From Microvirga sp. Mcv34 (lineage in GTDB: Bacteria > Pseudomonadota > Alphaproteobacteria > Rhizobiales > Beijerinckiaceae), in the NCBI RefSeq assembly GCF_024519725.1, contig NZ_JALJRK010000018.1:1-64000 (forward strand): 64,000 nucleotides of DNA, in the 5' to 3' direction. Below are positions 6,088 through 23,417 of this stretch, piece by piece. The position numbers and the translations under genes were made by a program. Position 1 is the stretch's first letter. Each line of letters opens with the position of its first letter. Below the pieces are notes generated by a model that worked only from the letters and a program-made list of their open reading frames with translations, made no database searches and was not told the origin of the DNA.

Positions 6088-6543
6088 ATGAGCACGTATC
6101 AACTAATCTACGCCGAGTTCGACATCTCCGCGATCCACGAGGGCGCCAACGCTGACGCGGACGAGCCCCTCGACCTGGAGGCCGCGCAATACGTGCCCGA
6201 GCTCTGTGGGGCGTTCACGGTCCCCATGCTGCGGGCCGCAATAAAACGCGGCGACCTGCGCCCGGAGCGGCACGGCCGCCTGCTGTACCTGACCAGAAAT
6301 CTGATTGCCGAGTGGAGAGACCGTTGCCGACCGAGCCCAAGCGCAAGCGCGCCAGCAAGAGAAAGAAGCCCCGCACCCTCGGCGTCGTCCGCCGGGGCGA
6401 GCCGTACCTCTGGCTCCGCGACGGGCGGATTGGATCGGACGGCATCGAGCGCGGCGCCCTCTACATCATCATGCACAAGGGCAAGCAGGTCGCCGGCACT
6501 GGCTGCGGCCCTGGCCAAGAGCAGGAAGCTCTCGAAGCGCTAG
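6088..6543 (+). CDS. Excisionase-like MerR/HTH_17 protein overlapping integrase
   Basis: A 151-residue frame. Residues about 32-77 resemble an excisionase-type winged HTH (CGAFTVPMLRAAIKRGDLRP, then LLYLTRNLIAEWRDRC), as found just upstream of tyrosine integrases. The last 75 residues are Ser/Ala/Arg low complexity and lie over the first 232 nt of the integrase in another frame, so they look like read-through of the integrase coding strand rather than a folded domain. Recombination directionality is the inferred role. Confidence 0.55.
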   Translation: MSTYQLIYAEFDISAIHEGANADADEPLDLEAAQYVPELCGAFTVPMLRAAIKRGDLRPERHGRLLYLTRNLIAEWRDRCRPSPSASAPARERSPAPSASSAGASRTSGSATGGLDRTASSAAPSTSSCTRASRSPALAAALAKSRKLSKR

Positions 6544-7622
6544 AGGACTACAAGGCCTCGCTGCACCAGCCGGTCACGCTCAAGAACCAGCCAGCCCACA
6601 AGGTCGCCATCGCGGACGTGATCAGCCGCTACCTCGACGCCAAGAAGGGCCAGGTCAAGCGCATCGAGGAGTACGGGCAGCGTGCCGTCGTGCTGCTTGA
6701 GTGGTGGGGCGAGCGGACCTTGGCCGACATCGACTCCGTCACCTGTGCGGAGTACGTGGCGCACCGCGCCGGCACGCCTTGGAAGGCCCACGCCAAGCTC
6801 GGGACCGGTAAGGACGGCAAGCCGGCAAGGCGAGGGCACTCGCGCCCCGTGAAGGCCAGGACGGTGTCGGCAGCCGGCGCCCGGCGCGAGCTGGAGGATC
6901 TACGGGCGGCGGTCAACCTTGCCATCGCCGACGGCCTGACGCGCGAGATGGTCAAGGTTACCTTGCCGGACAAGTCCAACGGCCGGGAGCGGTGGCTGGC
7001 CCGGCACGAAGCTGCCCGCATGCTCTTGGCCGCATGGCGCAAGCGCGAATTCCAGAAGGGGCGCGAGACGGACAAGTACTGCGCCCGACACGTTGCCAGG
7101 TTCCTGCTCGTCGGCCTGCGAACCGGCACGAGGGCAGGGGCCATCTGCGCAGCCTCGTTCATCCCTGAGATCGGGAAGCCCTGGGTCGAGCTCAAGGTCG
7201 AGGGCGGCCGGCGCGTCGCCATCTTCCATCGGAAGGCGCTTGGGGAGACTGAGGCGAAGAACAAGCGATACCCGACCGTCCGGCTGCCGGACCGGCTCGT
7301 GGCCCACCTGTGGCGGTGGCATCACGTCCTCAAGCAAAGGTACGTCGTCGAGTGGCGGGGCAAGCCGGTCGGCACGACGCAGCGGGCGTTCTCGAACCTC
7401 GTCTACGAGCTCGGGTTGGGGGACGATGTGGTCCGCCATACGCTCCGCCATACCGCGGCGACCTGGGGCATGCAGGAGGGCGTCGACCTCTGGGAGCTGG
7501 CCGGCTATCTCGGCATGTCGACGGAGGTCCTGGAGCGTCGCTACGGGCACCATTCGCCGACCCACATGGAGGGCGCAAGGAAGGCCATGGGCGGGCAGGG
7601 TAGGAAGAAAAGGACGGGATGA
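6312..7622 (+). CDS. Tyrosine recombinase/integrase of the left element
   Basis: A 436-residue protein. It has a Lys/Arg-rich N-terminus, an SAM-like core-binding segment (about 95-140) and a C-terminal catalytic domain with LRTGTRAGAI (first catalytic Arg), HTLRHTAATW (H-x-x-R box) and LERRYGHHSPTH, which carries the Tyr nucleophile. It cuts and joins att sites. Its stop is 104 nt from the 3' end of tRNA-Pro on the opposite strand, the classic place for an integrase at the end of its element. The element therefore extends left, out of the window. Confidence 0.85.
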   Translation: MERPLPTEPKRKRASKRKKPRTLGVVRRGEPYLWLRDGRIGSDGIERGALYIIMHKGKQVAGTGCGPGQEQEALEALEDYKASLHQPVTLKNQPAHKVAIADVISRYLDAKKGQVKRIEEYGQRAVVLLEWWGERTLADIDSVTCAEYVAHRAGTPWKAHAKLGTGKDGKPARRGHSRPVKARTVSAAGARRELEDLRAAVNLAIADGLTREMVKVTLPDKSNGRERWLARHEAARMLLAAWRKREFQKGRETDKYCARHVARFLLVGLRTGTRAGAICAASFIPEIGKPWVELKVEGGRRVAIFHRKALGETEAKNKRYPTVRLPDRLVAHLWRWHHVLKQRYVVEWRGKPVGTTQRAFSNLVYELGLGDDVVRHTLRHTAATWGMQEGVDLWELAGYLGMSTEVLERRYGHHSPTHMEGARKAMGGQGRKKRTG

Positions 7623-7689: not shown

Positions 7690-7732
7690 CCGACCATTCA
7701 AACCCTTATGGATCAAAGGTTTGAATGGTCGG
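7690..7732. repeat. 15 bp perfect inverted repeat spanning the tRNA-Pro 3' end
   Basis: CCGACCATTCAAACC (7690-7704) and GGTTTGAATGGTCGG (7718-7732) are exact reverse complements around a 13 nt centre. The right arm covers the CCA end and first acceptor-stem bases of tRNA-Pro. No T-run follows on the minus strand, so it is a poor terminator. It is a candidate core/junction site of the left element. Confidence 0.5.
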
Positions 7733-7802
7733 AGTGGCAGGATTTGAACCTGCGACCCCCACGTCCCGAACGTGGTGCGCTACCAGACTGCGCTACACTC
7801 CG
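7726..7802 (-). tRNA. tRNA-Pro (anticodon CGG)
   Basis: The minus strand reads CGGAGTG ... CACTCCG as a 7 bp acceptor stem, discriminator A and an encoded CCA. The anticodon loop is TTCGGGA (anticodon CGG) on a CCACG/CGTGG stem, with a GGTTCAAATCC T arm. The length is 77 nt including CCA. Its 3' end faces the left integrase, so it is the likely attachment site. Confidence 0.95.
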
Positions 7803-7951: not shown

Positions 7952-8026
<75 letters not shown>

Positions 8027-8088
8027 ACCTTCCATCTCTTGAAAAACCACTGCGAAATCAAAGCTTTGTACGGTAGGCCAGAGCCCCT

Positions 8089-8122
8089 GGTAGCACCGCA
8101 AGTAGCCCTGACGGTAGCACTG
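8089..8122 (+). repeat. Left arm-type repeats of the island integrase
   Basis: Three spaced decamers: GGTAGCACCG (8089-8098), AGTAGCCCTG (8101-8110) and GGTAGCACTG (8113-8122), with a 12 bp period. Two matching decamers occur near the other end (17521-17543). Repeats inside both ends of an island fit integrase arm-binding sites. The rest of 8027-8283 holds no gene that I can support. Confidence 0.55.
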
Positions 8123-8283
8123 AGGTGCCCCTGTGAAAAAGGGCCGTGAGGGTTCGATGGGTGACGACGTTGATCCCTCCTTCCATTTAGTCGGATCTCA
8201 TGCGGTGTCCGCTGCGACGGGCCTCGTCTAGGGAGCCGCGATGCAACGCCTGGCTCGTTCCCGAAGCGGAACGCCCTACGGGA

Positions 8284-9090
8284 TTACCCGTGCCGCCAGA
8301 CCTTCACGGCGGAAACAAGTAAGATCACGGCCAGGGCCGGGAGCAGGACTGCACTGGGAACTACGCCGAGCAGAAGACCGCCAATGAAGGTGCCAGCAAT
8401 CGAACCCGCAGCCATCACAAGCAGGAACGCGCGGTTGCGACCGAGAACCGAGAAGCTCTGGTCGCGGCTGTAGCGGGTGAACCCCACGAGCATCGTCGGC
8501 AAGCTCACGGCGAGTGACAGGCTTCCAGCGAGTTTGATGTCGGCTCCGAACAGCAAGACCAGGGTCGGGATCAGCAGTTCGCCCCCCGCCACGCCAAGTA
8601 GGGAGGCCACAACGCCGATCACGAACCCAGCAGCAATGCCAGCGACGAACTGCGCCCATCCCGTCAGGAGAGGTTGACCTGCGGTTGCATGATGACCGAA
8701 CACCAACACCCCGGCGATGACGACCAAGAGAACTGCGATCACTCGGTAGAGGGTCTCTGACTTGAGGCGTGTTGCCCATCCGGCCCCCACCCAGGCTCCC
8801 AGGAGGCTCCCGGCCAGCAAGTTGATCACGATGGGCCAATGGGCTGCGATCAACCCGAAGGGCACCGTCCCCGCTCGGAAGGGCAGGGCAGATGCGACGA
8901 CGACGAGGCTCGTGGCTTTGTTCAGGATCACGGCTTCCAGTGCCACGAACCGGAATAGCCCGATGAGCAGCGGCAGGCGGAACTCCGCGCCACCAAGGCC
9001 GATCAACCCGCCAAGTGTGCCGATGACGACACCACTGCCGAACGCGGCGGGAAGGTTCCGAGAATGGGAAGGCCCTTCTGGTGTCCGCAT
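8284..9090 (-). CDS. TauE/SafE-family membrane permease
   Basis: A 268-residue integral membrane protein with about eight hydrophobic segments and the family's two-fold repeat: GTLGGLIGLGGAEFRLPLL near residue 28 and GVVASLLGVAGGELLIP near 155. The family exports sulfite, sulfoacetate and other anions; the substrate here is unknown. I chose the ATG at 9090; the longer frame to 9216 runs through the arsR promoter and into arsR. It is divergent from arsR with only 46 bp between, so it may share control by ArsR and take part in arsenic or thiol metabolism (inference). Confidence 0.8.
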   Translation of the reverse strand: MRTPEGPSHSRNLPAAFGSGVVIGTLGGLIGLGGAEFRLPLLIGLFRFVALEAVILNKATSLVVVASALPFRAGTVPFGLIAAHWPIVINLLAGSLLGAWVGAGWATRLKSETLYRVIAVLLVVIAGVLVFGHHATAGQPLLTGWAQFVAGIAAGFVIGVVASLLGVAGGELLIPTLVLLFGADIKLAGSLSLAVSLPTMLVGFTRYSRDQSFSVLGRNRAFLLVMAAGSIAGTFIGGLLLGVVPSAVLLPALAVILLVSAVKVWRHG

Positions 9091-9100
9091 CAACTCACCC

Positions 9101-9129
9101 TTGACGGTTCTCTGAAATGTCCATAAGTC
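9101..9129 (+). promoter_or_regulatory. arsR promoter, apparently leaderless
   Basis: TTGACG (9101-9106), 17 nt spacer, TAAGTC (9124-9129). The arsR ATG at 9137 is only 7 nt after the -10-like element and has no purine-rich ribosome site before it, so the transcript probably starts at or next to the ATG. Confidence 0.45.
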
Positions 9130-9136
9130 TCGACAC

Positions 9137-9493
9137 ATGGAACAGACAGAAGCCATTCTCGCGCTCGCGGCTTTAGCCCAGCCCACACGGCTGGACGTGT
9201 TTAGGACGCTCGTCAAGCACGAGCCTCACGGGATGCCAGCGGGAGAAATCGCACGGGAACTCGCTGTGCCTCACAACACGATGTCCAGCCATCTCAACAT
9301 TCTCTCCCGCGCTGGGCTCGTCACCTCCGAACGTCAAAGCCGGTCCATCATCTACTGGGCCGACCTCGGCCAGCTCCAGAAGGTCGTGACGTACCTCCTC
9401 AAGGACTGCTGCGGTGGCCACCCCAGCGTATGTGCGCCCCTGCTGGATGCGCTGAACCCCTGCTGCTCCCCAAAGGAAACCGCCAATGGCTGA
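9137..9493 (+). CDS. arsR: ArsR/SmtB-family arsenic-responsive repressor
   Basis: A 118-residue protein with the winged HTH at about 15-75 (QPTRLDVFRTLV, then AGEIARELAVPHNTMSSHLN). Cysteines cluster at the C-terminus: Cys91, Cys92, Cys99, Cys109 and Cys110. C-terminal cysteines as the As(III) site are known in several ArsR lineages in place of the classical CVC in the recognition helix, which is absent here. It overlaps arsC by 8 nt and heads the operon arsR-arsC-acr3-arsH. It should repress this operon, and perhaps the divergent permease, until arsenite binds. Confidence 0.9.
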   Translation: MEQTEAILALAALAQPTRLDVFRTLVKHEPHGMPAGEIARELAVPHNTMSSHLNILSRAGLVTSERQSRSIIYWADLGQLQKVVTYLLKDCCGGHPSVCAPLLDALNPCCSPKETANG

Positions 9494-10319
9494 CGATAGC
9501 GTCACGATCCTCCACAACCCCGCCTGCGGCACGTCCAGGAACACCTTGAGCCTCATCCGAGGTGCGGGGATTGAGCCGGTAGTCGTCGAATACTTGAAGA
9601 CGCCACCGACGAAGAGCGAGCTTCGCGAGCTGATCGACGCGATGGGCGTCCCAGTTCGGGAGGTCGTGCGTGAGAAGGGCACCCCATTCAAAGAGCTGGG
9701 CCTCGATGCTCCTGGCGTGACCGATGACGACCTCCTGGACGCCATGATCGCGCACCCGATCCTGATCAACCGCCCCATCGTTTCGACCGCGCAGGGCGTG
9801 AAGCTGTGCCGACCCTCCGAGTTGGTTCTCGACCTCCTGCCGCCGGGATCGGTCCCAGACCTCGCCAAGGAAGAGGGAGCCCCGTTCCTCGTCGATAAGC
9901 AGGTTCCATCCTCGAAGGAAATGACTGACGCGCTCCAGGCCGAGGGTCTGCCTACGGACGATCTGGAGGATGCCGACCGGACCTTCTTCCAATACGACAC
10001 CCTGGGTGGCTCCCAGGTCGGCTACGGAGGCTTCGAGAGGTACGGGTCCGATGTACTTCTCCGGTCGATGGTTGTCCTGCCTGAGATGCGAGGGCAGGGC
10101 ATTGGTCGGAACATGACCCTCCTGTTGATGCGCCGTGCTTTTGATCAGGGCGCTCGTACCGCCTATGTGCTGACCACCTCTGCTCGCCCGTTCTTCGAGG
10201 CCCAGGGTTTCAAGGCGATCAACCGCGAGGAGGCCCCTGCGTCGATCCTCGCGACCCGTCAGGCGTCCAGCCTGTGCCCGTCCAGCGCCACTCTGCTGGC
10301 CCGACGCATCACCTTCTGA
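9486..10319 (+). CDS. arsC: Arsenate reductase fused to ArsN2-like acetyltransferase
   Basis: A 277-residue fusion. Residues 1-about 125 are a glutaredoxin-linked ArsC: VTILHNPACGTSRNTL with Cys14 as the attacking thiol, then INRPIV (Arg96) and GVKLCRP (Arg109). This part reduces arsenate to arsenite. Residues about 143-277 are a GNAT acetyltransferase of the ArsN2 type, with VGYGGFERYG, the acetyl-CoA loop MRGQGIGR (201-208), TTSARPFFEAQGF and the tail ILATRQASSLCPSSATLL. ArsN-type enzymes acetylate organoarsenicals or related toxins in known cases; the substrate of this one is unknown. Co-transcribed with arsR, with acr3 12 nt downstream. Confidence 0.88.
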   Translation: MADDSVTILHNPACGTSRNTLSLIRGAGIEPVVVEYLKTPPTKSELRELIDAMGVPVREVVREKGTPFKELGLDAPGVTDDDLLDAMIAHPILINRPIVSTAQGVKLCRPSELVLDLLPPGSVPDLAKEEGAPFLVDKQVPSSKEMTDALQAEGLPTDDLEDADRTFFQYDTLGGSQVGYGGFERYGSDVLLRSMVVLPEMRGQGIGRNMTLLLMRRAFDQGARTAYVLTTSARPFFEAQGFKAINREEAPASILATRQASSLCPSSATLLARRITF

Positions 10320-10331
10320 GGGTTCGACACG

Positions 10332-11399
10332 ATGTCCACGTTCGAGCGGTATCTGACCGTATGGGTGGCCCTGTGCATCATCGCGGGGATCGCCTTGGGG
10401 CACCTCATGCCCGGTGTCTTCCACGTCATCGCGTCAGCCGAGGTCGCCAATGTAAACCTGCCGGTGGCGGTCCTGATCTGGCTGATGATCATCCCGATGC
10501 TCCTCAAGATCGACTTCGCGGCCCTGGGCCAAGTCGGCAAGCACTGGCGCGGGATTGGCGTGACCCTTTTCATCAACTGGGCGGTCAAGCCGTTCTCGAT
10601 GGCTGCCCTCGGCTGGTTCTTCGTGGGCTACTTGTTCAGGCCGTACCTACCTGCCGACCAGATCAACTCCTACATCGCAGGTCTCATCATCCTGGCCGCT
10701 GCTCCGTGTACCGCGATGGTGTTCGTGTGGAGCAACCTGACGAAGGGGGAGCCTCACTTCACCTTGAGCCAAGTTGCGCTCAACGACGCGATCATGGTCA
10801 TCGCCTTCGCCCCCATCGTGGCCCTGCTGCTCGGCCTTTCCGCCATCACAGTGCCGTGGGGAACGCTCGTCCTGTCGGTCATCCTCTACATCGTCATTCC
10901 CGTGGTCGTGGCGCAGGTCCTCCGCAGGCGTGTCCTGGCATCCGGTGGGGAACCCGCCCTCGCTCGGTTGCTCGAAGTAATGGGGCCTGCGTCCCTGGTG
11001 GCGCTCCTGACGACCCTGGTTCTTCTCTTCGGGTTCCAGGGCGAACAAATCCTGGCGCAGCCGCTGGTCATTGCCCTTCTGGCCGTGCCGATCCTCATCC
11101 AGGTCTACTTCAACTCAGGTCTGGCCTACGTCCTGAACCGCTTGGTGGGTGAGAAGCACTGCGTCGCCGGTCCATCAGCCCTAATCGGCGCATCGAACTT
11201 CTTCGAGTTGGCCGTAGCGGCAGCCATCAGCCTCTTCGGGTTCCAATCTGGTGCCGCCCTGGCCACGGTCGTGGGTGTCCTGGTGGAGGTGCCCGTGATG
11301 CTATCGGTCGTGTGGATCGTGAACAGGAGCCAACATTGGTACGAGCGAGGGACCAAGCAGTCCCCGCAAGGTGTCGAAAGGATTGCAGCAGGTGAGTGA
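10332..11399 (+). CDS. acr3: ACR3-type arsenite efflux permease
   Basis: A 355-residue membrane protein with about ten hydrophobic segments, typical ACR3 length. It has the conserved [13 protein letters not shown] segment with the essential cysteine in TM4 (about residue 121), and family blocks [14 protein letters not shown] and [20 protein letters not shown]. It exports As(III) made by ArsC using the proton gradient. It overlaps arsH by 8 nt. Any relation to ArsB is excluded by these motifs. Confidence 0.93.
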
Positions 11400-12123
11400 C
11401 CTCCCGAACATCGACTACGATCAGCTTCGTATGCCAGACCTCCAGTGGCTCGAAGTCGGTCAGGTTTCGACGCACAGACCTCGCATCCTTCTCCTCTACG
11501 GGTCGCTCCGCCAGCGTTCCTACAGCCGCTTCCTGACGCTGGAGGCCGAGCGCCTGTTGCAGCACTTCGGAGCCGAGACCCGCGTGTTCGACCCGCATGG
11601 GCTCCCGTTGCCGGATGCGACCGCGAGCGATCACCCCAAGGTCCAGGAACTACGGGAGATGTCCCAATGGTCCGAGGGGCAGGTCTGGTGCAGTCCTGAG
11701 CGTCATGGGTCGATGAGCGCAGTCATGAAGGCCCAGATCGACTGGATACCGCTGGCAGTCGGCTCCATCCGACCCACGCAGGGGCGCACTCTGGCGGTCA
11801 TGCAGGTTTCCGGTGGATCGCAGTCATTTAACGCGGTGAACCAGTTGCGGGTGCTGGGCCGGTGGATGCGGATGATCACGATCCCCAACCAGTCCTCGGT
11901 CGCCAAGGCGTTCCAGGAGTTCGATGAGGAGGGGCGGATGAAGCCCTCATCGTACTATGACCGTGTGGTGGACGTGATGGAGGAACTGATGAAGTTCACG
12001 CTCCTGACCCGAGACCGCTCGGCGTACCTCACGGATCGCTACAGCGAGCGAAAGGAAACCGCGCAGAAGGAGGCCAAGCGATTGGCAGCTCTGGCCATGA
12101 GCCATGAAGTGGAGGGGACATGA
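11392..12123 (+). CDS. arsH: ArsH NADPH-dependent flavoprotein
   Basis: A 243-residue protein with the flavodoxin-like ArsH signature [16 protein letters not shown] (FMN phosphate loop) and the [20 protein letters not shown] core, followed by [20 protein letters not shown]. ArsH proteins oxidise trivalent organoarsenicals and reduce quinones or metals. I prefer GTG 11392, which overlaps the acr3 stop and has AAGGA 8-12 nt upstream; GTG 11371 is a longer alternative. It closes the ars operon, convergent with the polymerase-like gene after a 72 nt gap. Confidence 0.9.
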
Positions 12124-12195
12124 CATCTCCTCCTCTCGTTAGAGCTTACGGGTCCCTATAAAGGAGAGGGTGAAGATTACCTTATTGAGATGAGG

Positions 12196-13521
12196 CTATG
12201 AGGTAGCTGTGATGATGGCCTCCACTCCAACCATCTCATAGAACACTTCACTCATGACCTTCTTCGTGACCTCCTCCGCAGATGCACCAACGATCACAGC
12301 ATCATGCACAGGAAGACCAACAATCTCCTGATCCCGCAGGCGGAGGAGAACCTCAACCATCACTTCGCTCTCACGGTATTGGAGGTGATGTCCGATCCCA
12401 GTCTCGAAGTAATGGGCAATCGGTTGATGGAACTCACGTAGGCGCTCGACAAGGGTCTTGATGTTCTCCTTCGGGAGGAGGCTCTCGGTATCCTTCGGCT
12501 TCCTCTCCAGGGGCTTCTCAGTGAACAGGAGGGCATTGAGGAGTTTCTTGTACCCGTCGCGGAACTTGGCAGGGTCTCCAGCACCTGGGACCAAGTAGGC
12601 GTCGGTAGTCGGGGGCTCTGCACCGGCCATGCCGTAAAGTATCCGTGGCGTCATTTGGCCATAGTCGAGTTCGACAGCGTTCTCACCGCCGATGACGAGT
12701 TTTTTCAAACGTCCCTGCTTCTGCATGGTCTGCCACCGACCACCGAAGAGACGACCGCCCTTCTCAAATGAGCCCTGGGTGAAGAAACGACGAAGACGAC
12801 GGTCCCTTTCGTCCAGTTCGCTAAACGTGAGGTTTCCAGGATCGAAGATGTGGATGTCAGCTTGATCAAGCCACTCGTTGATCGTTTTGAGGCGCGACCG
12901 CATTTCAATCGTAGCTGCGGTATCGGCGTACTCGATCTTCTCACCCTGATGCCAGTAGCCCTCCTTGGCCTCCTTGAGGATGATGGTCTCCTCGTTCATC
13001 GACCAGCCGATGTCCCATAGTTCGATACCGCTCTCGACAATCCTATTCTTGAGGCGAGGACCGAGCGTGATCAGGGTCTTCTGGTGCCGGTTCGCGAGCG
13101 GGTTCTTGTAGCCCTTATCTTGCTTGATGAAGGCCATTTCAGGCGCACTCATAAGGTCGAGTACGTCGGGAAAGGTCTTTCCGAGCACGGGGGAGCGGTA
13201 TCGGGACTTAACACCCAACTCCCGAAACGACCGTGAAACTGCCAGACCTCCGGTATGTCCTTTCAGATGAGCGTGGGCCAAGTCGCAAACCACTGCCGCA
13301 ATGGTGGTCTCGAAGACCGTTTGGGCGCTCTTGGTACGTGCCCGTTCACGCGGTTTGCGATGGCGCTCATAGCTTTCCACCTGCCGGATTACGTCGGCTA
13401 CCAGGGCCTTCGCCTTGTCGGTTCGTGGGGCTCGCCAGGGCTCAAAGAACCTATCATCGGCGAGCTTGATCGGAGCCTCGTTAAGAGCCGAGGCCGGTGT
13501 GATCTTCTGTGCTGCGGTCAT
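12196..13521 (-). CDS. Compact polymerase-like (PolA/T7 palm-type) protein
   Basis: A 441-residue protein. The C-terminal half carries, in the right order, what look like family-A/T7-type polymerase motifs: motif A VELDYGQMTPRILYG (Asp286); a motif-B-like helix RDGYKKLLNALLF (Arg321, Lys325); LQYRESEVMVEVLLRL, as in the segment before motif C; and motif C LPVHDAVIV (His406, Asp407). Before motif A lies RRLRRFFTQGSFEKGGRLFGGRWQ (240-263; 24 residues, split as RRLRRFFTQG and SFEKGGRLFGGRWQ). No exonuclease domain is seen, and it is far shorter than Pol I. It starts within the stop of the upstream gene (TAATG), so the two are coupled. Polymerase activity is inferred from motifs only. A long in-frame extension to 13719 overlaps the partner gene and was rejected. 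Confidence 0.6.
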   Translation of the reverse strand: MTAAQKITPASALNEAPIKLADDRFFEPWRAPRTDKAKALVADVIRQVESYERHRKPRERARTKSAQTVFETTIAAVVCDLAHAHLKGHTGGLAVSRSFRELGVKSRYRSPVLGKTFPDVLDLMSAPEMAFIKQDKGYKNPLANRHQKTLITLGPRLKNRIVESGIELWDIGWSMNEETIILKEAKEGYWHQGEKIEYADTAATIEMRSRLKTINEWLDQADIHIFDPGNLTFSELDERDRRLRRFFTQGSFEKGGRLFGGRWQTMQKQGRLKKLVIGGENAVELDYGQMTPRILYGMAGAEPPTTDAYLVPGAGDPAKFRDGYKKLLNALLFTEKPLERKPKDTESLLPKENIKTLVERLREFHQPIAHYFETGIGHHLQYRESEVMVEVLLRLRDQEIVGLPVHDAVIVGASAEEVTKKVMSEVFYEMVGVEAIITATS

Positions 13522-14183
13522 TAAGTCAGGTCCGATACGGCTTGCTGAAACGATTTGACCTCTTGCTGACGAGCTTCCCAGTCGGCCTTCTCCAACTCGA
13601 CCAGCTTCATCCCAACCCCGCCGAGGACAGGGACAATCCAGCCTGCGATGACCTGGACAACCCGAGGAGGGAGCTCGCGGTAAACGCGGCGCATCTTGTT
13701 GGTCTTGTTGTCGTGCCACACACCCACGTTCACATCCGACAAGCCGCGAACACGGCGAACGAGCTGCGTGGAGAACGCATCATCTGACCGGAAACGCCTC
13801 GGCTCCTGGTAGAGCATGAGGTACATGGCGAGTGCCGTCACGATCACCTCTCGGGGCTCGACAGACTGACCGAGTTTCTTGACCTCGCTTGCCGCTCTGA
13901 CCTCGTGGCGAAGCCCAGGACGCCCGTTGTGGAACGCGGAGAGGATTGCCTCCGCTGATCGGGTCAACGCCAGCCAGCGGTCATCCAGCTGCGCCCAGAC
14001 GGGGTTGGCTGCGTTCTTCGCAATCCGCGCCTCCACGAGTTTCACGTAGGGCTCCAACTGGGCCTTCGTGACGCCCGCCTGACGGGGATCGCCATGACGC
14101 CGCATGACGGCCTTGTGGGTGGTGCAGTGGGCTCCGAACTTCGTGGTGGGCTCGGCGCATCCAGGGACGCGGCAGGTTCTCAA
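13521..14183 (-). CDS. Cys/His-motif protein coupled to the polymerase-like gene
   Basis: A 220-residue protein. The N-terminal 32 residues form a probable zinc site: CRVPGC, then HCTTHKAVMRRHGDP (Cys4, Cys9, Cys20, His23 and nearby), a pattern seen at the N-terminus of phage HNH and related DNA-associated proteins. The rest is helical, Arg/Lys-rich and without a recognised catalytic motif. It shares one base with the start of the polymerase-like gene, so the pair are probably made in fixed ratio and act together. Its promoter region contains a TCACGGACA 9-mer (14214-14222) like those at the recombinase. Confidence 0.5.
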   Translation of the reverse strand: MRTCRVPGCAEPTTKFGAHCTTHKAVMRRHGDPRQAGVTKAQLEPYVKLVEARIAKNAANPVWAQLDDRWLALTRSAEAILSAFHNGRPGLRHEVRAASEVKKLGQSVEPREVIVTALAMYLMLYQEPRRFRSDDAFSTQLVRRVRGLSDVNVGVWHDNKTNKMRRVYRELPPRVVQVIAGWIVPVLGGVGMKLVELEKADWEARQQEVKSFQQAVSDLT

Positions 14184-14360
14184 CTTGTGCTCCGTTTTAT
14201 TGCGCCCGTCCTCTCACGGACAGACACGAAAAGAAATGCGGCGGGGAGACGCGAAGGGATTGGCGTTGGGGCGGGATTGGCCGGTTAGTACGACAAGTGC
14301 AGTGACTGCACCGATGATTGGTGTCTTCGACGACACCTATCGGCTTCACAAGCCCGTACG

Positions 14361-14996
14361 TCACTGCCCCCAGGCCGCGAGGTTCGCCTCGGCCTCGACG
14401 GGATCGGCCTTGATCCGCAGTACGGTCTGCCTGGACAACTCGGTTGCCCTTCCAATCTCGCTCGTTCCCACGCCCTGTCCGAGGAGGTGCTGCACGGCCT
14501 GGAGCTGCTCGCGGCTATAGGATGGCTTGCGGCCCCTGTAGCGGCCTCCTTGCGCCTTCGCGTGTTCAATCCCGGCCCGCTGGGCTTCTTTCGTCGCCTC
14601 CGCCTGGGCCTGTGCGGTTGCCGCCATGAAGGCGATCAGAGCGTCCCGCACAGCCTGCTGCATCGGGTCCGTAGTCGCACCGTCGAACGTCATGCCGTTG
14701 ATGACCGTCTTCACCACGACCCCGCGCCGCATGAACTCACGGATGGTGTCGCTCACATCGCGGTAGTCGCGGCCCAGCCGGTCCACCCACCGGACCACGA
14801 GGGTGTCGCCACGGCGCAGTATGTCGAAAAGGCGCTTCCCCTCGGGCCTCTCCGCCAGTGCTGTGCTGACACCTGAGACCCCGTTGTCGGACACTACCTC
14901 GTCGATGGAGAACCCTGCGGCCTCTGCCTGGGTCTTCTGGTGGGCGAGGGTCTGATCAGTGGTGGAGACGCGAGCATAAAGGATGGTCTTGGTCAT
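14361..14996 (-). CDS. Serine recombinase of the resolvase/invertase family
   Basis: A 211-residue protein. The catalytic domain starts TKTILYARVSTTDQTLAHQK with nucleophile Ser11, followed by RRGDTLVVRWVDRLGRDYRD (Arg cluster, about 60-80) and the E-helix TAQAQAEATKEAQRAGI. The C-terminal HTH is about 155-200 (LGQGVGTSEIGRATELSRQ). It cuts DNA with a 5'-phosphoserine link. The 9-mer array just upstream (15009-15121) is a likely res site or operator. It may serve resolution or inversion of the island, or be a remnant of a transposon. Confidence 0.9.
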   Translation of the reverse strand: MTKTILYARVSTTDQTLAHQKTQAEAAGFSIDEVVSDNGVSGVSTALAERPEGKRLFDILRRGDTLVVRWVDRLGRDYRDVSDTIREFMRRGVVVKTVINGMTFDGATTDPMQQAVRDALIAFMAATAQAQAEATKEAQRAGIEHAKAQGGRYRGRKPSYSREQLQAVQHLLGQGVGTSEIGRATELSRQTVLRIKADPVEAEANLAAWGQ

Positions 14997-15008
14997 GGCT
15001 TCCTCGGG

Positions 15009-15121
15009 TGTCCGTTAGGGACTTGTCCGTAGATAAGCCTGTCCGTTAATCGAAGTCAACCCTTACGGACACCCTTTCGTCCACCGTATCGTCTGACCTT
15101 TAGAGCATACTCTTACGGACA
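15009..15121. promoter_or_regulatory. Array of TGTCCGTTA-type 9-mers upstream of the recombinase
   Basis: Forward copies: TGTCCGTTA 15009-15017, TGTCCGTAG 15024-15032, TGTCCGTTA 15040-15048. Inverted copies: TTACGGACA 15063-15071 and 15113-15121. Forward copies repeat every 15-16 bp. They lie between the start of the serine recombinase (14996) and the end of the TIR gene (15172). The arrangement of direct and inverted subsites resembles a resolvase res site, or the operator of a regulator; which one is not shown by the sequence. Confidence 0.6.
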
Positions 15122-15171
15122 ACAGCGTGGAGCCAACAATGGAAGTGGTCTACGATCTTAGCGAGGGGAGA

Positions 15172-15951
15172 TCAGTCTTCGTGGTTTTCCCACTTCTCAA
15201 GAAAAGCTCGTGTGATTGGTTCAGAGCGACAGCCGCAGGCTATGGACTGCCCACCACACGCCGGACACTCTTCCATGTCACAACTTCCAGCATGATACTG
15301 TCCTGGCAGCACAAAGCAGTCGTGACAGATCATCTTGGTGTGCAGTTGCTTACCTTCCCAGTACTTCTCATCACCGTGGCGGATGCGCTCGAAGGGACGA
15401 GTGATCAGGAACACTGGTTCGTGCTGTGCTTGCTCGATCTGTTCTGGCCAAAACCTTGAGACTTTGGTTCCGTTGTACTCGACGAAGTCACCTTCCCACT
15501 CGGGCGTTCCACCTTCGACTTCAAGTCCGGTTGCAGAGCGACCCATTTTCTCCAGCAGCAGTGCGGCGACTTCCTCGATAGTTGTGCTCCGCAAGTCCAG
15601 ATACCCGACGGTGGCATTGAGCCCAGGCAGGATAGTATCGTCGAGCCTGAGCGGCAGGATGTATTCTCTGTTGCTTTCAAAAGAGCGGGCCTGAGCTTGC
15701 TGCAACTCGTGTTTTGTCCAAGCCTTTCGAACATAGTGCTCTGAAACGAACACGATGCAGTAGGCGGCTTTATCCTTGTAGACCGATTGCAGGTGCTGAA
15801 AGAGGTCCTTCCCCCACAGGGTAGCCTTCGAAAACTCGTCGTAAAACACCTTCAAGCCGTGTCCTTTGACGATCTCGGCGAGATGATGTGCCTGCTGCCT
15901 GTCCTCTCCAGCAAACGACAGTGCTACGTCGAACTCATACGCCTCTGGCAT
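15172..15951 (-). CDS. TIR-domain protein with C-terminal cysteine-rich module
   Basis: A 259-residue protein. Residues about 5-135 are a TIR domain: YEFDVALSFAGEDRQQAHHL, KVFYDEF, AAYCIVFVSEHYVRKAWTKH and the helix ELQQAQARSF with the candidate NADase glutamate Glu82. Residues about 205-245 hold a cysteine-rich zinc-ribbon-like module (Cys209, Cys212, Cys224, Cys229, Cys232, Cys239, Cys241). Bacterial TIR proteins are often NAD-consuming effectors or signal makers in phage defence, and this one sits on an integrative island. No Thoeris thsA or other partner is next to it. I chose ATG 15951 because the TIR fold begins right after it; a frame to 16026 is possible. Confidence 0.8.
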   Translation of the reverse strand: MPEAYEFDVALSFAGEDRQQAHHLAEIVKGHGLKVFYDEFSKATLWGKDLFQHLQSVYKDKAAYCIVFVSEHYVRKAWTKHELQQAQARSFESNREYILPLRLDDTILPGLNATVGYLDLRSTTIEEVAALLLEKMGRSATGLEVEGGTPEWEGDFVEYNGTKVSRFWPEQIEQAQHEPVFLITRPFERIRHGDEKYWEGKQLHTKMICHDCFVLPGQYHAGSCDMEECPACGGQSIACGCRSEPITRAFLEKWENHED

Positions 15952-16046
15952 TACTGCTTCTCTGGGTGGGGTACGGGGGGAAGTGACCCGCCGCGCTGTT
16001 ACACAAGGTCTCTCAGATTTTTGCAACAGAATAGTCCGCCCTCATC

Positions 16047-17483
16047 TCAGCTTGTCGACGGGGCGAGAACACTGCCGCTATGGCTGTTCTGGTTGATGGT
16101 TGGCAAGCTGACGCCTGAGGGAAGACTGACGCTCTCCACCACCGTCCGTAGTTGCTCCATGAGCGGCCCCCCGCTGTAAACTCCAAGAGCCATCCCTGGG
16201 CGCTTGTGGCCGACCACGACCTCGATCAGGTGCGGCTGTTGTCCTGCCTGCTCGGCCTTGGTGACGAACGTCCTACGCCATGAGTGGAAGGTGACCTTGC
16301 TCTGTCGCGCTCCTTCCTCCCGGTCATCGACCCCGACTTGCCTGCGGTACGTCACGAACTCCTTGACGACCTTCTGGCTTTTCTCGATGGGGCTCCCCGG
16401 TTTCGGCTCCGGTAGTTCGGGCCAAAGGGTGTCCTTCGGTTTCCTCTTGTCAGTCCTCCGGGTGACGATCTCGGACAGGGCAGGGTGGATCGGGACTTGC
16501 CTGATACCCGCCTTCGTCTTCGCTGTGTGAATGTCAAAGTAACCGTTGGTCACATCCTCCACGGTCAACTTGGCGATCTCCTCGACGCGCATCCCGGAGA
16601 GGGCTGCAATGGTCATGAAGTCGCGTAGCATGGGGGACGGCTGGACCAGGGCAGGCTTTCTTCGTCCCACGGCCACGACCTTCCCGTTGAACAGGGTCTT
16701 GATCTCCTCATTGGTGAAGGGTCTGGGCTCCTCCTTCCTCCCTGCCTTCGGTTTGGGGAGGGACTGCCCTGACCATACATTCTCCTTGGCGATGCCCTTC
16801 CGCTCCGCCCACTTCCACAGGCTTGCAATGCAAGAGATGTCCTTGTTGGCCGTCCTCGGGTGGACCCCGGCGTTGGAGAAAGCCTCACTGACATACTGGC
16901 CAGCGATCCTTTTGGTGATCCTCTCGATTGCCTCGGGGTGCTTTCCGGCTGCGAGCCATGCGGTGAACTTGGCGACGGCTCTCCGGTAGTCGGTCTGCTG
17001 TCTCGGCTTCATGGGCCGCTCGGCGATCCACTGGTCGACATGGGCGCTGATGGGGTTGGCCTTCCCGATGGCGATGGCGTGAAACTCCTTCGCTCTGGTC
17101 AAGCCTTCGGCCTCCTCGATCTCCTCCGCTCGCTCCGCAAGGAGACTGGTAGTGATGTCCCATGCTTCCGCCTCGGGGTTGTCCCGGTCGTAGTCCTGGG
17201 CCTGCTGCAAATCCAGACGCCACTGCATCGCTTCTCGTATGCGCGACCCCACGGCCCTCTTGGTCTTCCCCCCGTGAACCCTCTCGGCCTCCTCGATTTG
17301 CTGCTTCAGGGCGTGGATGATCCCATGCTTGATCAGGTTCGCTCGGGCGAGGCTATCGGTCCCGGTGGTCTGCCGTAGGTGGGCCTTGCCGATGATCTCG
17401 CGGAGATGTGCGGGCACCTTCACGTTGACCAGATAGGTGGTCCCCCGTTGAATGAGGAAGCTCTTGTCCTTGCTCGCTGCCAT
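16047..17483 (-). CDS. Tyrosine integrase of the arsenic island
   Basis: A 478-residue protein. The N-terminal part (FLIQRGTTYLVNVKVPAHLR) is typical of large tRNA-island integrases, followed by a core-binding region and a catalytic domain with ALSGMRVEEIAKL (Arg I), VTFHSWRRTF (H-x-x-R), VVVGHKR and MALGVYSGG with the Tyr nucleophile. It lies 123 nt from the 17 bp attR repeat and points away from it. It should catalyse insertion at the tRNA-Gln 3' end. The two arm-like decamers sit between its start codon and attR. Confidence 0.92.
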   Translation of the reverse strand: MAASKDKSFLIQRGTTYLVNVKVPAHLREIIGKAHLRQTTGTDSLARANLIKHGIIHALKQQIEEAERVHGGKTKRAVGSRIREAMQWRLDLQQAQDYDRDNPEAEAWDITTSLLAERAEEIEEAEGLTRAKEFHAIAIGKANPISAHVDQWIAERPMKPRQQTDYRRAVAKFTAWLAAGKHPEAIERITKRIAGQYVSEAFSNAGVHPRTANKDISCIASLWKWAERKGIAKENVWSGQSLPKPKAGRKEEPRPFTNEEIKTLFNGKVVAVGRRKPALVQPSPMLRDFMTIAALSGMRVEEIAKLTVEDVTNGYFDIHTAKTKAGIRQVPIHPALSEIVTRRTDKRKPKDTLWPELPEPKPGSPIEKSQKVVKEFVTYRRQVGVDDREEGARQSKVTFHSWRRTFVTKAEQAGQQPHLIEVVVGHKRPGMALGVYSGGPLMEQLRTVVESVSLPSGVSLPTINQNSHSGSVLAPSTS

Positions 17484-17520
17484 GTCTCTGCTTTGCTTCT
17501 ATGCCGCCCGGTATCCCCGC

Positions 17521-17543
17521 AGTAGCACCGGCTGGTAGCACTG
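17521..17543 (+). repeat. Right arm-type repeats of the island integrase
   Basis: AGTAGCACCG (17521-17530) and GGTAGCACTG (17534-17543) match the decamers at 8089-8122 in sequence and orientation. They lie in the integrase promoter region, so occupancy could also control int expression. Confidence 0.55.
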
Positions 17544-17606
17544 GCAATCGATCGAAACCCTTGAAAAGCAAGGAATGTAAGGGGTTGGGTGTTAGTCGGC
17601 TTGTAT

Positions 17607-17623
17607 TCCTGGCGCCCCAGCCA
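17607..17623 (+). repeat. attR direct repeat
   Basis: TCCTGGCGCCCCAGCCA, identical to the last 17 nt of tRNA-Gln at 8010-8026. It marks the right boundary of the island; the following bases (TCCTCTT) are native flank. Confidence 0.85.
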
Positions 17624-18450
17624 TCCTCTTAAAATTCAGAACTCGTGATAAAGATCAGTGGGTTACCGTGAGGCACCCGGATCGTAGCGGCCCCGTGGCC
17701 GCCTAACCCGATTTTGGCCCGCTGCGCCGCGGCGCTTCTGACGCCAAGAATCCTATCGCCCGAGGTCTGAGGCTCCGTCCGCAATCTCAGTGTCGGACCG
17801 GTATTGAATCTTCACCCGCTTGGGATCCGAAAGCAGTTGAGAGCCTTTTCAGGGATCGTCCCAACAAGGCGCCCTCACGTCTGGCGCGGCCACGGCTGAG
17901 CCGCACCCGGGTATGGCAAGAGGGACATAGGCTTTATCCGCACCGTCGACGATGGGACTGAACGCTTTGTTTCCGACTTGGGCCGAGGCTCCATGAGTGC
18001 GGAATGTTCCGCGGCCTTCGGGGTCAAGATCGGGACAAAATCCTGATCTAGCGGGTGTCTAGATCAATACGTTTCAACACGTGAAGCAATCGGGCAGGCG
18101 TTCACGACGATGTGCCGAGCAGGATTTACCTCACGGTCGAGGGGAGAAGCACAATCAGCCTGTTCGTCGATGCCGGCTGCGGGTCAGTTTGTCCAATCAT
18201 CCAGAGAGGAATGACTTGGTTCACGAGGCACTCTGCCGTCGTACAGGATGAATCGTCGTGGCGAAGGCCTGTCCGTTCGGAGCTCGGACTGCAGGACGAC
18301 AATAGTCCGAAATCGTGCCGACGCCGAGGTGATCAGCGCATTCGACAGGATAGGACGACGTCCTGCGTTCCGAAGGCTGGACAAAATTCCAAATGTTCAT
18401 AGATTATATGCACTCAATAGGTTCCGTGGCTTTTTGACTGAGCGTGACCC
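17624..18450. other. Intergenic region between attR and nap operon
   Basis: 827 bp without a gene I can support. Frames of 60-96 codons occur on both strands near 18112-18499 but have no ribosome site and poor composition. An 8 bp perfect dyad, TGATCTAG (18044-18051) / CTAGATCA (18059-18066), is the clearest structure. No good FNR/FixK 14-mer is seen before napE; the nearest, TTATATGCACTCAA just upstream, misses two consensus positions. Confidence 0.4.
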
Positions 18451-18615
18451 ATGCGATCAGAACCACTGGACGACAGTAGGAAGAAGCGTGAGGCACTGAC
18501 GTTTCTCATTCTTGCTGTCCTGATATGGCCTTTCATTGCCGTCGGCGTCGTCGCGGGGTGGGGCTTTGTTGTCTGGATGTACTATATGTTTACTGGACCG
18601 CCCGGTCCCGTTTGA
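18451..18615 (+). CDS. napE: NapE, small membrane subunit
   Basis: A 54-residue protein, MRSEPLDDSRKKREALTF followed by one transmembrane helix (LILAVLIWPFIAVGVVAGWG) and the short tail YMFTGPPGPV, the typical NapE form. Its exact role in periplasmic nitrate reduction is unknown. It is the first gene of napEFDABC, 13 nt before napF. Confidence 0.85.
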   Translation: MRSEPLDDSRKKREALTFLILAVLIWPFIAVGVVAGWGFVVWMYYMFTGPPGPV

Positions 18616-18628
18616 CGAGCGTGCGCCG

Positions 18629-18922
18629 ATGAACGAGCCTCCGGATCTCAAACGGCGCAGCTTCCTCCTCGGCAGGTTTGCCGAGGTGCGCGAGTTCGAT
18701 GCTCCTCCCGTAGCCTCGATTGGCTCTTCCTGTTTTACGCAGCATGGGATCGCCTGCATGAGTTGTCGCGACGCCTGTTCGACAGGTGCCGTGCGGTTCG
18801 AACTCGCCCTCGGCGGAGCGCGCCCTTGGATCGTGAGCGAGGCCTGCACCGGCTGCGGCGCGTGTGCGCAATCCTGTCCCGCTAACGCCATTCGGATTAC
18901 CTCTGCCGAGGTCGTCTCATGA
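18629..18922 (+). CDS. napF: NapF-like ferredoxin, short form
   Basis: A 97-residue protein starting MNEPPDLKRRSFLLGRF. It has two iron-sulfur motifs: the region of Cys41-CMSCRDACS and the classical CTGCGACAQSCP near the C-terminus. NapF helps mature NapA in the cytoplasm. Usual NapF is about 160 residues with four [4Fe-4S] clusters; this one appears to keep only two. The start at 18629 is chosen because it gives the conserved N-terminus; an upstream frame overlaps napE. Its ATGA end overlaps napD. Confidence 0.8.
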   Translation: MNEPPDLKRRSFLLGRFAEVREFDAPPVASIGSSCFTQHGIACMSCRDACSTGAVRFELALGGARPWIVSEACTGCGACAQSCPANAIRITSAEVVS

Positions 18923-19176
18923 ATGGCGAATGTCACATCTCCAGCCTCGTCGTGCACAGCCGGCCGGATCAGGTTTCCGCGATCATCGAGCGTATTCGCG
19001 CCATCGAAGGGGTCGAGATTCATGGTGGGCAGGAAACGGGCAAACTGATCGTGACGCTCGAAACCGAAACCGAGGATCAGGTGGTCGAGCGCATCAACGC
19101 CATCCAGCTTCTTGAGGGTGTCCTCGCCGCCACCCTAGTCTTTCATCACTTCGAGCCTGTTCAAGAGCGGGAGTAG
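18919..19176 (+). CDS. napD: NapD chaperone
   Basis: An 85-residue protein with the NapD ferredoxin-like fold: [18 protein letters not shown], then [20 protein letters not shown] and [15 protein letters not shown]. NapD binds the twin-arginine signal of NapA and guides cofactor loading before export. ATGA overlap with napF; 4 nt before napA. Confidence 0.93.
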
Positions 19177-19180
19177 ACTC

Positions 19181-21700
19181 ATGGACCTTACGCGCCGCAC
19201 CCTCCTCAAGACACAGGCGGCTGCGGCCGCGGCCGCCGCGGCGAATGTCGCACTTCCGGCCAGCGCGCAGAACATTCTCACTGGCGAGGACCTCCAGCTT
19301 CAATGGTCGAAGGCGCCCTGCCGTTTTTGCGGAACAGGGTGTGGCGTGATGGTCGGCGTAAAGGACGGTAGAGTCGTCGCCACGCACGGGGACATGCAAG
19401 CGGAGGTCAACCGCGGCCTCAACTGCGTGAAGGGCTATTTCCTGTCCAAGATCATGTACGGTTCGGACAGGCTCACGCAGCCTTTGATGCGCATGAAGAA
19501 CGGACAATTCGCGAAGGACGGAGAGTTCCAGGCCGTCTCCTGGGATCGGGCTTTCGACGAGATGGCGAAGCAGTTCAAGCGCGTGCTGAAGGAGAAAGGG
19601 CCCGAGGCCGTCGGCATGTTCGGTTCAGGGCAGTGGACGATCTGGGAGGGATATGCTGCCTCGAAGCTGTTGCGGGCCGGGTTCCGCACCAACAATCTCG
19701 ATCCGAATGCACGCCACTGCATGGCCTCTGCTGCCGTCACCTTCATCCGTACCTTCGGCATGGATGAGCCGATGGGCTGCTACGACGACTTCGAGCATGC
19801 GGACGCCTTCGTGCTCTGGGGTTCGAACATGGCCGAAATGCACCCGATCCTGTGGACGCGGGTGACCGACCGCCGCCTGAGCCATCCTCATGTGCGAATT
19901 GCGACGCTCTCGACCTACGAGCACCGCACGACGGACCTGTCTGACATGGCCTTGATCTTCAAGCCGAACTCGGACCTCGCGATCATGAACTACATCGCGA
20001 ACTACATTATCCAGAACGGCGCGGTGAATCGGGAGTTCGTCGAAAAGCACTGCAATATCCGGCTGGCGAACACCGATATCGGCTACGGCCTGCGGCCCGA
20101 GAACGTGCTGGAGCAGCGGGCGCAGCATGCCAACGATGCCCAGGTATCCAATCCTTCGAGCTTCGAGGAATATGCGAAGCTCGTGAGCCAGTATACGGTT
20201 GAGAAGGCATCCGAACTCTCGGGCGTGCCGGCGGCTCGCCTCGAGGCCCTGGCGCGCCTCTACGCCGATCCGAAGATCAAGGTGATGTCGCTCTGGACCA
20301 TGGGCTTCAACCAGCATGTCCGCGGCGTCTGGGCCAACCACATGGTCTACAATCTGCATCTTCTGACGGGAAAGATCGCCGAGCCCGGCAACTCGCCTTT
20401 CTCGCTGACGGGGCAGCCTTCGGCCTGCGGAACGGCGCGCGAGGTCGGCACCTTCAGCCACCGGCTCCCTGCCGACATGCAGGTCAACAATCCGGAGCAT
20501 CGCAAGCATGCGGAAGAACTCTGGAAACTGCCGCACGGATTGCTGCCGGAAAAGGTCGGCTACCACGCCGTGCAGCAAGACCGAATGCTCAAGGACGGCA
20601 AGCTCAACGCCTACTGGATCATGTGCAACAACAATCTCCAGACGGCACCGAACACCAACAACGAAACCTATCCGGGCTACCGCAACCCGGCGAATTTCGT
20701 CGTCGTCTCCGACGCTTATCCGACCGTGACCGCGATGGCGGCTGACGTGATCCTGCCGGCCGCTATGTGGGTCGAGAAGGAGGGAGCCTACGGCAATGCC
20801 GAGCGGCGCACGCATTTTTGGCACCAACTCGTGAACGCCCCGGGCGATGCCCGTTCCGATCTGTGGCAGTTGATGGAGTTCTCCAAGCGCTTCACGACGG
20901 ACGAGGTCTGGCCGGCACAGATCCTTGAGTCCAGTCCGGAATACAGGGGGAGGAGCCTCTTCGATGTCCTCTTCGCGAATGGCGAGGTGAACAGATTTCC
21001 CGTGTCGGAGATCGACCCAGCCTATGAGAATCGCGAGTCGAAAGCGTTCGGCTTCTACGTGCAGAAGGGGCTCTTCGAGGAATATGCGAGCTTCGGCCGT
21101 GGCCATGGGCATGACCTCGCGCCGTTCGAGTCCTATCATCAGGCACGTGGGCTGCGATGGCCCGTGGTGGACGGCAAGGAGACGCTCTGGCGCTACCGCG
21201 AGGGTTTCGATCCTTATGTCGAGAAGGGCAGTGGGCTGCAATTCTATGGCAACCCCGACAAGAAGGCCAACATCATGGGGGCACCCTACGAGCCTCCGGC
21301 CGAATCTCCCGATGCCGAGTACGATCTATGGCTTGTGACGGGGCGTGTCCTGGAACATTGGCATTCCGGTTCCATGACGTTGCGCGTTCCAGAGCTTTAC
21401 AAGGCATTCCCCGGCGCGGTCGTCTTCATGCATCCGGATGATGCAGCCAAGCGTCACCTCAGACGCGGGCAAGAGGTGAGAGTAGTCTCACGGCGGGGCG
21501 AAATCCGCAGCCGCATCGAGACGCGCGGGCGTAACCGCGTACCCCCTGGGCTGATCTTCGTCCCGTTCTTCGATGCCAGCCAGCTCATCAACAAGGTGAC
21601 ACTCGACGCGACGGACCCGATCTCGAAACAGACCGATTTCAAGAAATGCGCGGTGAAAGTCGTCTCGGCGGCAACCGCCGATGCGGGAGAGCAGCCATGA
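19181..21700 (+). CDS. napA: Periplasmic nitrate reductase catalytic subunit
   Basis: An 839-residue protein of full family length. It has a twin-arginine signal ([13 protein letters not shown]), an N-terminal [4Fe-4S] site [13 protein letters not shown] with its fourth Cys in LNCVKG, the Mo-ligand cysteine in [10 protein letters not shown], and molybdopterin domains ending [16 protein letters not shown]. It reduces nitrate to nitrite in the periplasm with electrons from NapB. ATGA overlap with napB. Confidence 0.97.
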
Positions 21701-22787: not shown

Positions 22788-22791
22788 GCTC

Positions 22792-23340: not shown

Positions 23341-23373
23341 GCCAGTTCGCGAGAGATTCTACACAAGCAGAAG

Positions 23374-23394: not shown

Positions 23395-23417
23395 AGAGGA
23401 TGTGCCTTGTGGTCGGT

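Follow-up and report, generated by a model that had tools for sequence, protein, structure and literature searches.

What does a compact polymerase-like protein, encoded next to a small Cys/His protein on a genomic island, do for the DNA that carries it? The question is raised by two minus-strand genes in a 64,000-nt stretch of the genome of Microvirga sp. Mcv34 (contig NZ_JALJRK010000018.1; hereafter the window, in whose coordinates all positions without a locus name are given). The first gene (12196-13521) encodes the 441-residue protein P0001, and the second (13521-14183) encodes the 220-residue protein P0002, hereafter the partner. An initial annotation, made from the sequence alone, had proposed that the two form a new polymerase system. 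We found that P0001 is a member of divPolA2, a polymerase family known from phages since 2024. Our best explanation, to which we give about an even chance, is that P0001 is an active, stripped-down family-A-type polymerase serving the mobilised island through replication, priming or gap filling.

P0001 is a member of the phage divPolA2 family

The polymerase gene runs from an ATG at 13521 to a stop codon at 12196-12198 (441 codons), and the closest named homologues of P0001 were proteins of Microvirga species (74% and 71%). P0001 matched the PHROG profile phrog_4756, of unknown function (E 3.2e-35), as did all four bacterial or viral-contig homologues tested. The same profile matched gp034 of phage Barba29A (3e-64), a protein of phage ICP1 (3.2e-163) and an Aeromonas phage protein, the three phage proteins being 434-495 residues long. 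From the phage group, the size and a co-occurring annotated DNA polymerase gene, we infer that Barba29A gp034 is the divPolA2 of Yutin et al. Additionally, when the P0001 model was compared with viral models by Foldseek, the top 11 matches were phage proteins of 400-450 residues (E 1.3e-22 to 6.3e-17), including one named as the DNA polymerase of Rheinheimera phage Barba31A, and named PolA proteins came after them. A tblastn search with P0001 found a match in 245 of 50,697 phage records, chiefly from Vibrio (118) and Rheinheimera (113) phages. The divPolA2-family gene of Vibrio phage ICP1 (9200-10687 in locus L028) is annotated as encoding a hypothetical protein; a Pol I-type polymerase is reported for this phage (PMC7145576).

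According to the original account (Yutin et al. 2024, Virol J, PMC11348598), divPolA2 occurs beside a regular polymerase in 110 barbavirus genomes and in other phages, and has an active-looking palm, no known thumb and no exonuclease, with either repair or RNA synthesis as an RNA polymerase considered as its role. P0001 and the phage proteins have in common the PHROG profile and the fold, a similar size, palm motifs A, B and C, the lack of an exonuclease and an unassigned N-terminal domain. They also coexist with a regular DNA polymerase, the genome of the Microvirga strain encoding a regular PolA elsewhere, as the divPolA2 phages have a regular polymerase. The claim of an undescribed system thus falls for the polymerase family. 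What differs is the setting: the bacterial genes lie in integrative islands and are accompanied there by an integrase, a resolvase, a conserved zinc-finger partner and an associated DNA motif, whereas the annotated phage neighbours examined were of other kinds, and neither islands nor such a partner are mentioned in sections 13 and 14 of the divPolA2 account (PMC11348598). Among the literature matches listed, the name divPolA2 occurred in Yutin et al. 2024 and its preprint, and literature on such polymerases in islands or phages contained, as judged from titles and the beginnings of abstracts, nothing recognisable as the present system.

A family-A palm with invariant catalytic residues

Homologues were collected from 85 loci, of which 80 came from genomes (80 kept of 118 relatives) and 5 from viral contigs. 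Alignment A3 comprises 78 sequences, namely P0001 and those of 77 of the 85 loci; it omits L055, L065 and L068 (broken frames), L078 (a duplicate of L077), L095, L102 and L104 (truncated) and L115 (distant). Alignment A1 comprises 21 more divergent sequences. The initial annotation had placed polymerase motifs at Asp286 (motif A), Arg321 and Lys325 (motif B) and His406-Asp407 (motif C), and these residues stand where it put them. Asp286, Arg321, Lys325 and Asp407 were invariant in A3 (78/78), the test that it had proposed, and so were Gly256, Arg257 and Trp263, while His406 was found in 77 of 78 sequences. In A1, Asp286, Lys325, His406 and Asp407 were invariant and Arg321 was conserved in at least 90%. 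The conservation of the named residues is far above chance. A catalytically dead regulator, which would keep the polymerase fold only for DNA binding, would have no need of the catalytic aspartates, Arg321 and Lys325 that are invariant here, and we regard it as extremely improbable.

An AlphaFold2 model of P0001 built from the 78 sequences (predicted local distance difference test, pLDDT, 91.1; predicted template modelling score, pTM, 0.88; residues 1-20 disordered) contains the expected polymerase palm and, as had also been proposed, no nuclease domain; exonuclease and proofreading domains are likewise missing. Foldseek returned 94 PDB matches with E ≤ 0.001, and the best 50 of these 94 were all family-A DNA polymerases by title. 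The best match had an E-value of 4e-6 and a probability of 1.00, with low template modelling scores (0.23-0.36) among the matches; the 50 include the family-A enzymes apPol and SFM4-3. No reverse transcriptase (RT) was among the best 50 of 94, which does not favour the RT-like system considered in the initial annotation. Residues 64-153 of the model are arranged as helix-strand-helix-helix-strand-strand, an order of secondary structures suggestive of a winged-helix-like domain.

Against Pfam, P0001 gave nothing meaningful (best E 0.15), and against NCBIfam no match at E ≤ 1. Specifically, PF00476 (PolA; E ≤ 1) and PF00940, the family of T7-type RNA polymerases, matched neither P0001 nor, among the best 25 of 35 weakly matching families, the 78 members of A3. 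Because sequence profiles do not reach PolA, the placement in family A rests on fold and motifs. P0001 has the palm fold in common with Pol I/Klenow (PF00476; Foldseek) and, by comparison with the Pol I motifs and with the PolA of this genome, the D-Y-x-Q-x-x-x-R motif A, the R-x3-K motif B and the HD of motif C. Unlike Pol I, it is not detectable by the sequence profile, has no exonuclease domains and lacks Glu both at the gate position and after the Asp of motif C. Ten PDB sequence matches of A1 to flagellar, ribosomal and ATP-synthase-associated chains were dismissed as chance.

The polymerase lies on a tRNA-targeted island

The pair was assigned to a 9.6-kb island, at about 8027-17606, inserted in a plus-strand tRNA-Gln gene (7952-8026; ARAGORN), because the 3' end of this tRNA recurs beyond the integrase gene. 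The attachment site at the first end (8010-8030, plus strand) was found again at 17607-17627 (plus strand), just past the integrase, with 17 nt exact and 20 of 21 identical overall. Both marks of a tRNA-targeted integrative island, an integrase and a duplicated tRNA 3' end, are present, and the island location suggested by the initial annotation is confirmed with its ends.

Upstream of the pair and on the same strand are genes for a small serine recombinase, the resolvase (14361-14996; PF00239, 8.3e-29; HTH_7, 3.9e-8), a TIR-domain protein (about 15172-15951, start uncertain; PF13676, 4e-18) and a tyrosine integrase (16047-17483; PF00589, 1.6e-13). Downstream and convergent is a plus-strand arsenic-resistance block, comprising genes for an ArsR-type regulator (9137-9493; HTH_20, 1.3e-17; HTH_5, 9.7e-5), a fusion of ArsC with GNAT domains (9486-10319; PF03960, 6.6e-19), an SBF-family exporter (10332-11399; PF01758, 2e-30), whose arsenite role is suggested by context, and a flavin mononucleotide reductase named as ArsH type, also by context (11371-12123; PF03358, 9e-34). 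The remaining cargo gene encodes a TauE/SafE-family transporter (8284-9216, minus strand; PF01925, 3.6e-38). No Rep, helicase, primase or relaxase gene was among the ten assigned island genes, a set from which smaller open reading frames were left out.

Outside the island, a second tyrosine-integrase gene (6312-7622; PF00589, E 1.7e-6) lies beside a tRNA-Pro gene (7726-7802) and may mark a second integration site or an island abutting the tRNA-Gln island. On the right, genes resembling those of periplasmic nitrate reductase and copper nitrite reductase were recognised by eye at 18536-24539.

The same setting recurs in homologous loci

An integrase or resolvase gene was located within 6 kb of the polymerase gene in 70 of the 85 loci, some of which are cut by contig ends. 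ARAGORN predicted 43 tRNA genes in 40 of the loci, and the 3' end of 23 of these tRNA genes, in 22 loci, was repeated (at least 14 nt). In all 23 cases the polymerase gene lay between the two copies. The tRNAs of the islands were those for Glu, Thr, Ala, Leu, Asn, Gln, Ser, Pro and Met. Directly before the polymerase gene of some Rhodobacteraceae stands an integrase gene or, as read by eye, an apparent 3' remnant of one. A tyrosine integrase near a tRNA gene, a duplicated tRNA 3' end and exchangeable cargo are all known from tRNA-targeted genomic islands; the present ones differ by a dedicated compact polymerase with its partner and, in the window, by the lack of a relaxase or Rep gene among the ten assigned.

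A scan of 84 of 401 neighbouring genes covered, for each of 84 loci (L078 was dropped as a duplicate), the closest gene outside the core with at least 160 codons. Among the 25 most frequent of 93 and of 306 matching families, these genes encoded type I restriction R proteins in six loci, TIR proteins in two and BglII-type endonucleases in two; many of the others were ordinary. Such neighbours, together with the TIR gene of the window island, are what would be expected if the polymerase and its partner were an anti-phage defence component carried as cargo. However, the defence genes vary between islands whereas polymerase, integrase and resolvase recur, the main cargo of the window island is arsenic resistance, and lytic phages, ICP1 among them, have phrog_4756 as well, so that a defence role appears distinctly improbable.

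A polymerase of general benefit to host or phage, acting in repair or translesion synthesis and merely borne by islands, would agree with the role in repair proposed for divPolA2 (PMC11348598) and with the lack of a proofreading domain in the model. But the gene is tied to integrases and islands in the loci seen, occurs in only 12 of 48 genomes of the genus and seems to be exchanged in place between islands (see below), all of which makes this explanation very improbable.

Some loci had further features around the polymerase gene. RNase HI-like genes were found near it in L113 (1-549), L043 (11456-11932), L110 (7874-8530) and L055 (13429-13884), adjoining it in the first two; the gene of L113 was named by eye and the other three cluster with it. 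In L072, a 485-bp inverted repeat (229-713 and 8115-8599; 99.8%) that contains the polymerase 3' end and the downstream motif described below brackets the polymerase gene and type I restriction-like genes (by eye). A 235-bp version of such a repeat lies at the contig ends of L059, and a 42-bp version in L109. Rhodobacteraceae bacterium HTCC2083 has two 5.2-kb copies, 99.87% identical, at different chromosomal places (L077, and L078 9815-15042), which contain the polymerase gene, an integrase gene and a transposase-like gene.

The partner is often, but not always, beside the polymerase

The partner gene (220 codons, minus strand) extends from a TTG at 14183 to a TAA at 13521-13523; the TTG start is supported by homologue L032, which starts with ATG at the same place. 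The TAA shares its last A with the polymerase ATG, giving the TAATG junction that had been read from the two frames. With a partner profile, the gene was detected in the vicinity of the polymerase gene in 43 of 85 loci, 19 times upstream and 24 times downstream; among the 19, its stop codon overlaps an ATG in 8 (by eye). The proposed conservation of the partner beside the polymerase therefore holds for these 43 loci, no partner being detected in the other 42, and the idea of a fixed-ratio pair, with the partner on either side or undetected, is not supported. Among 398 genomes of the phylum, 11 had a partner match, 8 of them strong (E below 1e-50), and in 7 of these 8 the polymerase lay within 0.8 kb. 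The polymerase was found in 24 of the 398 genomes, compared with 11 for the partner; thus, most genomes with the polymerase are without a detectable partner.

Partner alignment A4 contains 40 sequences and omits one fragment, L031, L094 and the near duplicates L041 and L097. C20, H30, G31 and Q140 were present in all 40, and C4, C9, H23 and R29 in at least 90%. The Cys/His-type N-terminus noticed in the initial annotation can be written as C-x4-C...C-x2-H. The model of the partner is helical (pLDDT 94.3), and its comparison with the PDB by Foldseek gave no match with E below 0.3. Against Pfam, P0002 gave nothing better than E 0.064; weak matches among the 40 members included two cysteine-rich or zinc-finger families, with five members each. 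In L031 (9108-9992), the partner frame is fused to a serine-recombinase-like N-terminus, and only its last 116 residues match the partner.

Probable in-place exchange of the polymerase gene

When the window was aligned with G431, a genome of the same genus, protein identity was 96.2% for the resolvase and 94.1% for the partner but only 59.4% for the polymerase, and arsH was 93.1% identical at the DNA level. Identity falls from the start codon of the polymerase gene onward and rises again by degrees toward the stop codon. Compared with L032, the window had identities of 76.8% for the partner and 71.4% for the polymerase, and the polymerase of L031 was 73.5% identical. Since polymerase and partner disagree on which island is closest, the sequence comparison indicates that the polymerase gene has most likely been exchanged in place between islands. 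The 53% identity between the partners of the window and L031 was recognised as an artefact, the 116 matching residues being 77.6% identical, and L031 was dropped from the argument because its frame is a fusion or a remnant. Replacement between conserved flanks resembles the swapping of phage DNA polymerases (Yutin et al. 2024), although here it would take place in a bacterial integrative island and not in a phage genome.

Upstream of the resolvase gene, a res-like site (14997-15121, minus strand) with repeated GTCCGTAA-type half sites, ordered as in a res site, was read by eye. The window and G431 cease to be homologous at 15121, and homology between L042 and L073 begins at the equivalent place. 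Such limits are expected if cargo is exchanged at the res-like site.

A conserved motif follows the polymerase gene

Just downstream of the polymerase stop codon, on the same strand, lies the 24-bp motif CTCTCCTTTATAGGGACCCGTAAG (12168-12145), with the core TATAGGGACCCGTAAG. On the two strands of the 85 loci (1,410,857 bases), the pattern GGGAC[CT]C[GA]TA[AT]G occurred 27 times, and most loci were without this strict form. Of these occurrences, 25 were at the 3' end of a polymerase gene and in its orientation: 24 were at most 195 nt downstream, and one (L032) overlapped the end of the frame. Of the other two, one was next to an inverted second fragment of a polymerase gene (L072) and one elsewhere (L086). 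A position weight matrix (PWM) trained on motif sites gave, at a threshold of 15, 53 sites in the zone downstream of the polymerase and 7 elsewhere. In a further scan (threshold 14.1), 47 of 100 downstream stretches carried the motif. The rows of this count are not independent, several genomes being in both collections (e.g. L002/L082, L003/L048, L005/L108 and L007/L110), the counting was done with a PWM that had itself been trained on hits, and a control stretch from upstream or the opposite strand reached a score of 19.1. The plain pattern gives the cleaner count. At the PWM threshold of 15, the motif was not found in the three phage loci scanned. In G431, a tandem duplication of the final 16 nt of the motif lies just after the polymerase gene (L185, 3908-3947).

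The motif was first read as the end of the island, as homology with L186 and L187 stops there; this reading was rejected, the tRNA repeat placing the motif inside the island between the arsenic cargo and the polymerase. In 9 of 29 usable pairs (30 were found, one without sequence), the point at which homology ends was -2 to +5 nt from the motif end; in 18 pairs homology continued past it, and in 2 it ended earlier. A conserved hairpin at the motif was also rejected, as the best stems were in differing places. The motif could be the site of action of the polymerase, a control element or a recombination point.

DNA or RNA synthesis

Throughout A3, Glu is absent from the position of E710 of Pol I and from that after the Asp of motif C, and the residue at the E710 (gate) position is small in most of A3. 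The lack of Glu at these two positions resembles single-subunit RNA polymerases, and with T7-type enzymes (PF00940) the family also has in common an HD[A/S/C/G] motif C, a mostly small gate residue and a G-R-x-[F/Y] block. P0001 could alternatively be a single-subunit RNA polymerase or a primase, with the downstream motif as its start site and with a transcript that drives genes of the excised circle or primes replication. However, none of the best 50 of 94 PDB matches was a T7-type enzyme, all being DNA polymerases, PF00940 was matched neither by P0001 nor, among the best 25 of 35 weak families, by the members of A3, and P0001 is much smaller. Motif A, DYGQMTPR, is Pol I-like, and the gate residue is often H, F or Y, not small, in the divergent A1. 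Additionally, the 16-nt core of the motif, with up to one mismatch, had only three matches in 61 genomes, two of them beside the polymerase, compared with five for the reversed control, and the motif is therefore not a dispersed promoter set. A search of 150 genomes with PF00940 found a match in one genome only, too few for a profile. We consider this RNA polymerase or primase somewhat unlikely. The product may be DNA or RNA, two active-site positions looking RNA-polymerase-like and motif A looking Pol I-like.

A proposed role on the mobilised island

The favoured explanation remains a divPolA2 polymerase at work on the island. The conserved residues and the predicted structure suggest catalytic activity, and the step from gene content to replication or priming of the island is an interpretation of the setting. 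In this enzyme, a DNA-binding-like N-terminal domain would replace the thumb and the exonuclease and be followed by palm and fingers. The polymerase belongs to the core of tRNA-targeted islands, with the tyrosine integrase, the small serine resolvase and the zinc-finger partner, and this core is accompanied by exchangeable cargo, such as arsenic resistance and the TIR gene in the window and type I restriction in some other islands. Directed by its N-terminal domain and the partner, and perhaps also by the downstream motif, the polymerase would carry out nucleic acid synthesis on the island once this has been excised or mobilised, by copying, priming or gap filling, and the island would thereby not rely on the host replisome alone.

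Several observations weigh against this explanation. A clean empty site was not found in 48 genomes of the genus searched with the arsH flank and the nap-side flank, short matches of the latter pointing to the tRNA repeat. The partner was undetected by profile search in 42 of the 85 loci. Four of the 11 genomes with a partner match had no polymerase match (G091, strong; G014, G331 and G296, weak), and in G091 (L222, 1592-9001) integrase, partner and resolvase lie together with no polymerase match; thus, such islands can exist without the polymerase. Sequence-profile searches of the PDB reached no polymerase. An hhalign comparison with 23 PolA proteins was not significant (probability 2.7% and 5.0%) and was level with a control of 23 RT sequences (1.1% and 5.0%), and because both score at noise level it cannot decide between PolA and RT.

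A more specific version, which we think unlikely in its entirety, would be a self-sufficient class of islands in which the miniature polymerase and a new-fold zinc-finger partner start RNA or DNA synthesis at one cognate 24-bp site per island. The excised circle would then be transcribed or copied independently of the host, and the polymerase gene would be swapped as an interchangeable specificity part.

In the account of Yutin et al., divPolA2 is a second phage polymerase with no explanation. Its bacterial branch adds a repeated genomic setting, consisting of tRNA-targeted islands with integrase, resolvase, partner and motif, and thereby makes the function of divPolA2 testable. The islands may have an as yet undescribed way of copying or reading their own DNA. 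If the polymerase does copy or prime the island, then small genomic islands that lack Rep genes would not be passive passengers, and a very small family-A-like polymerase module would have a biological role.

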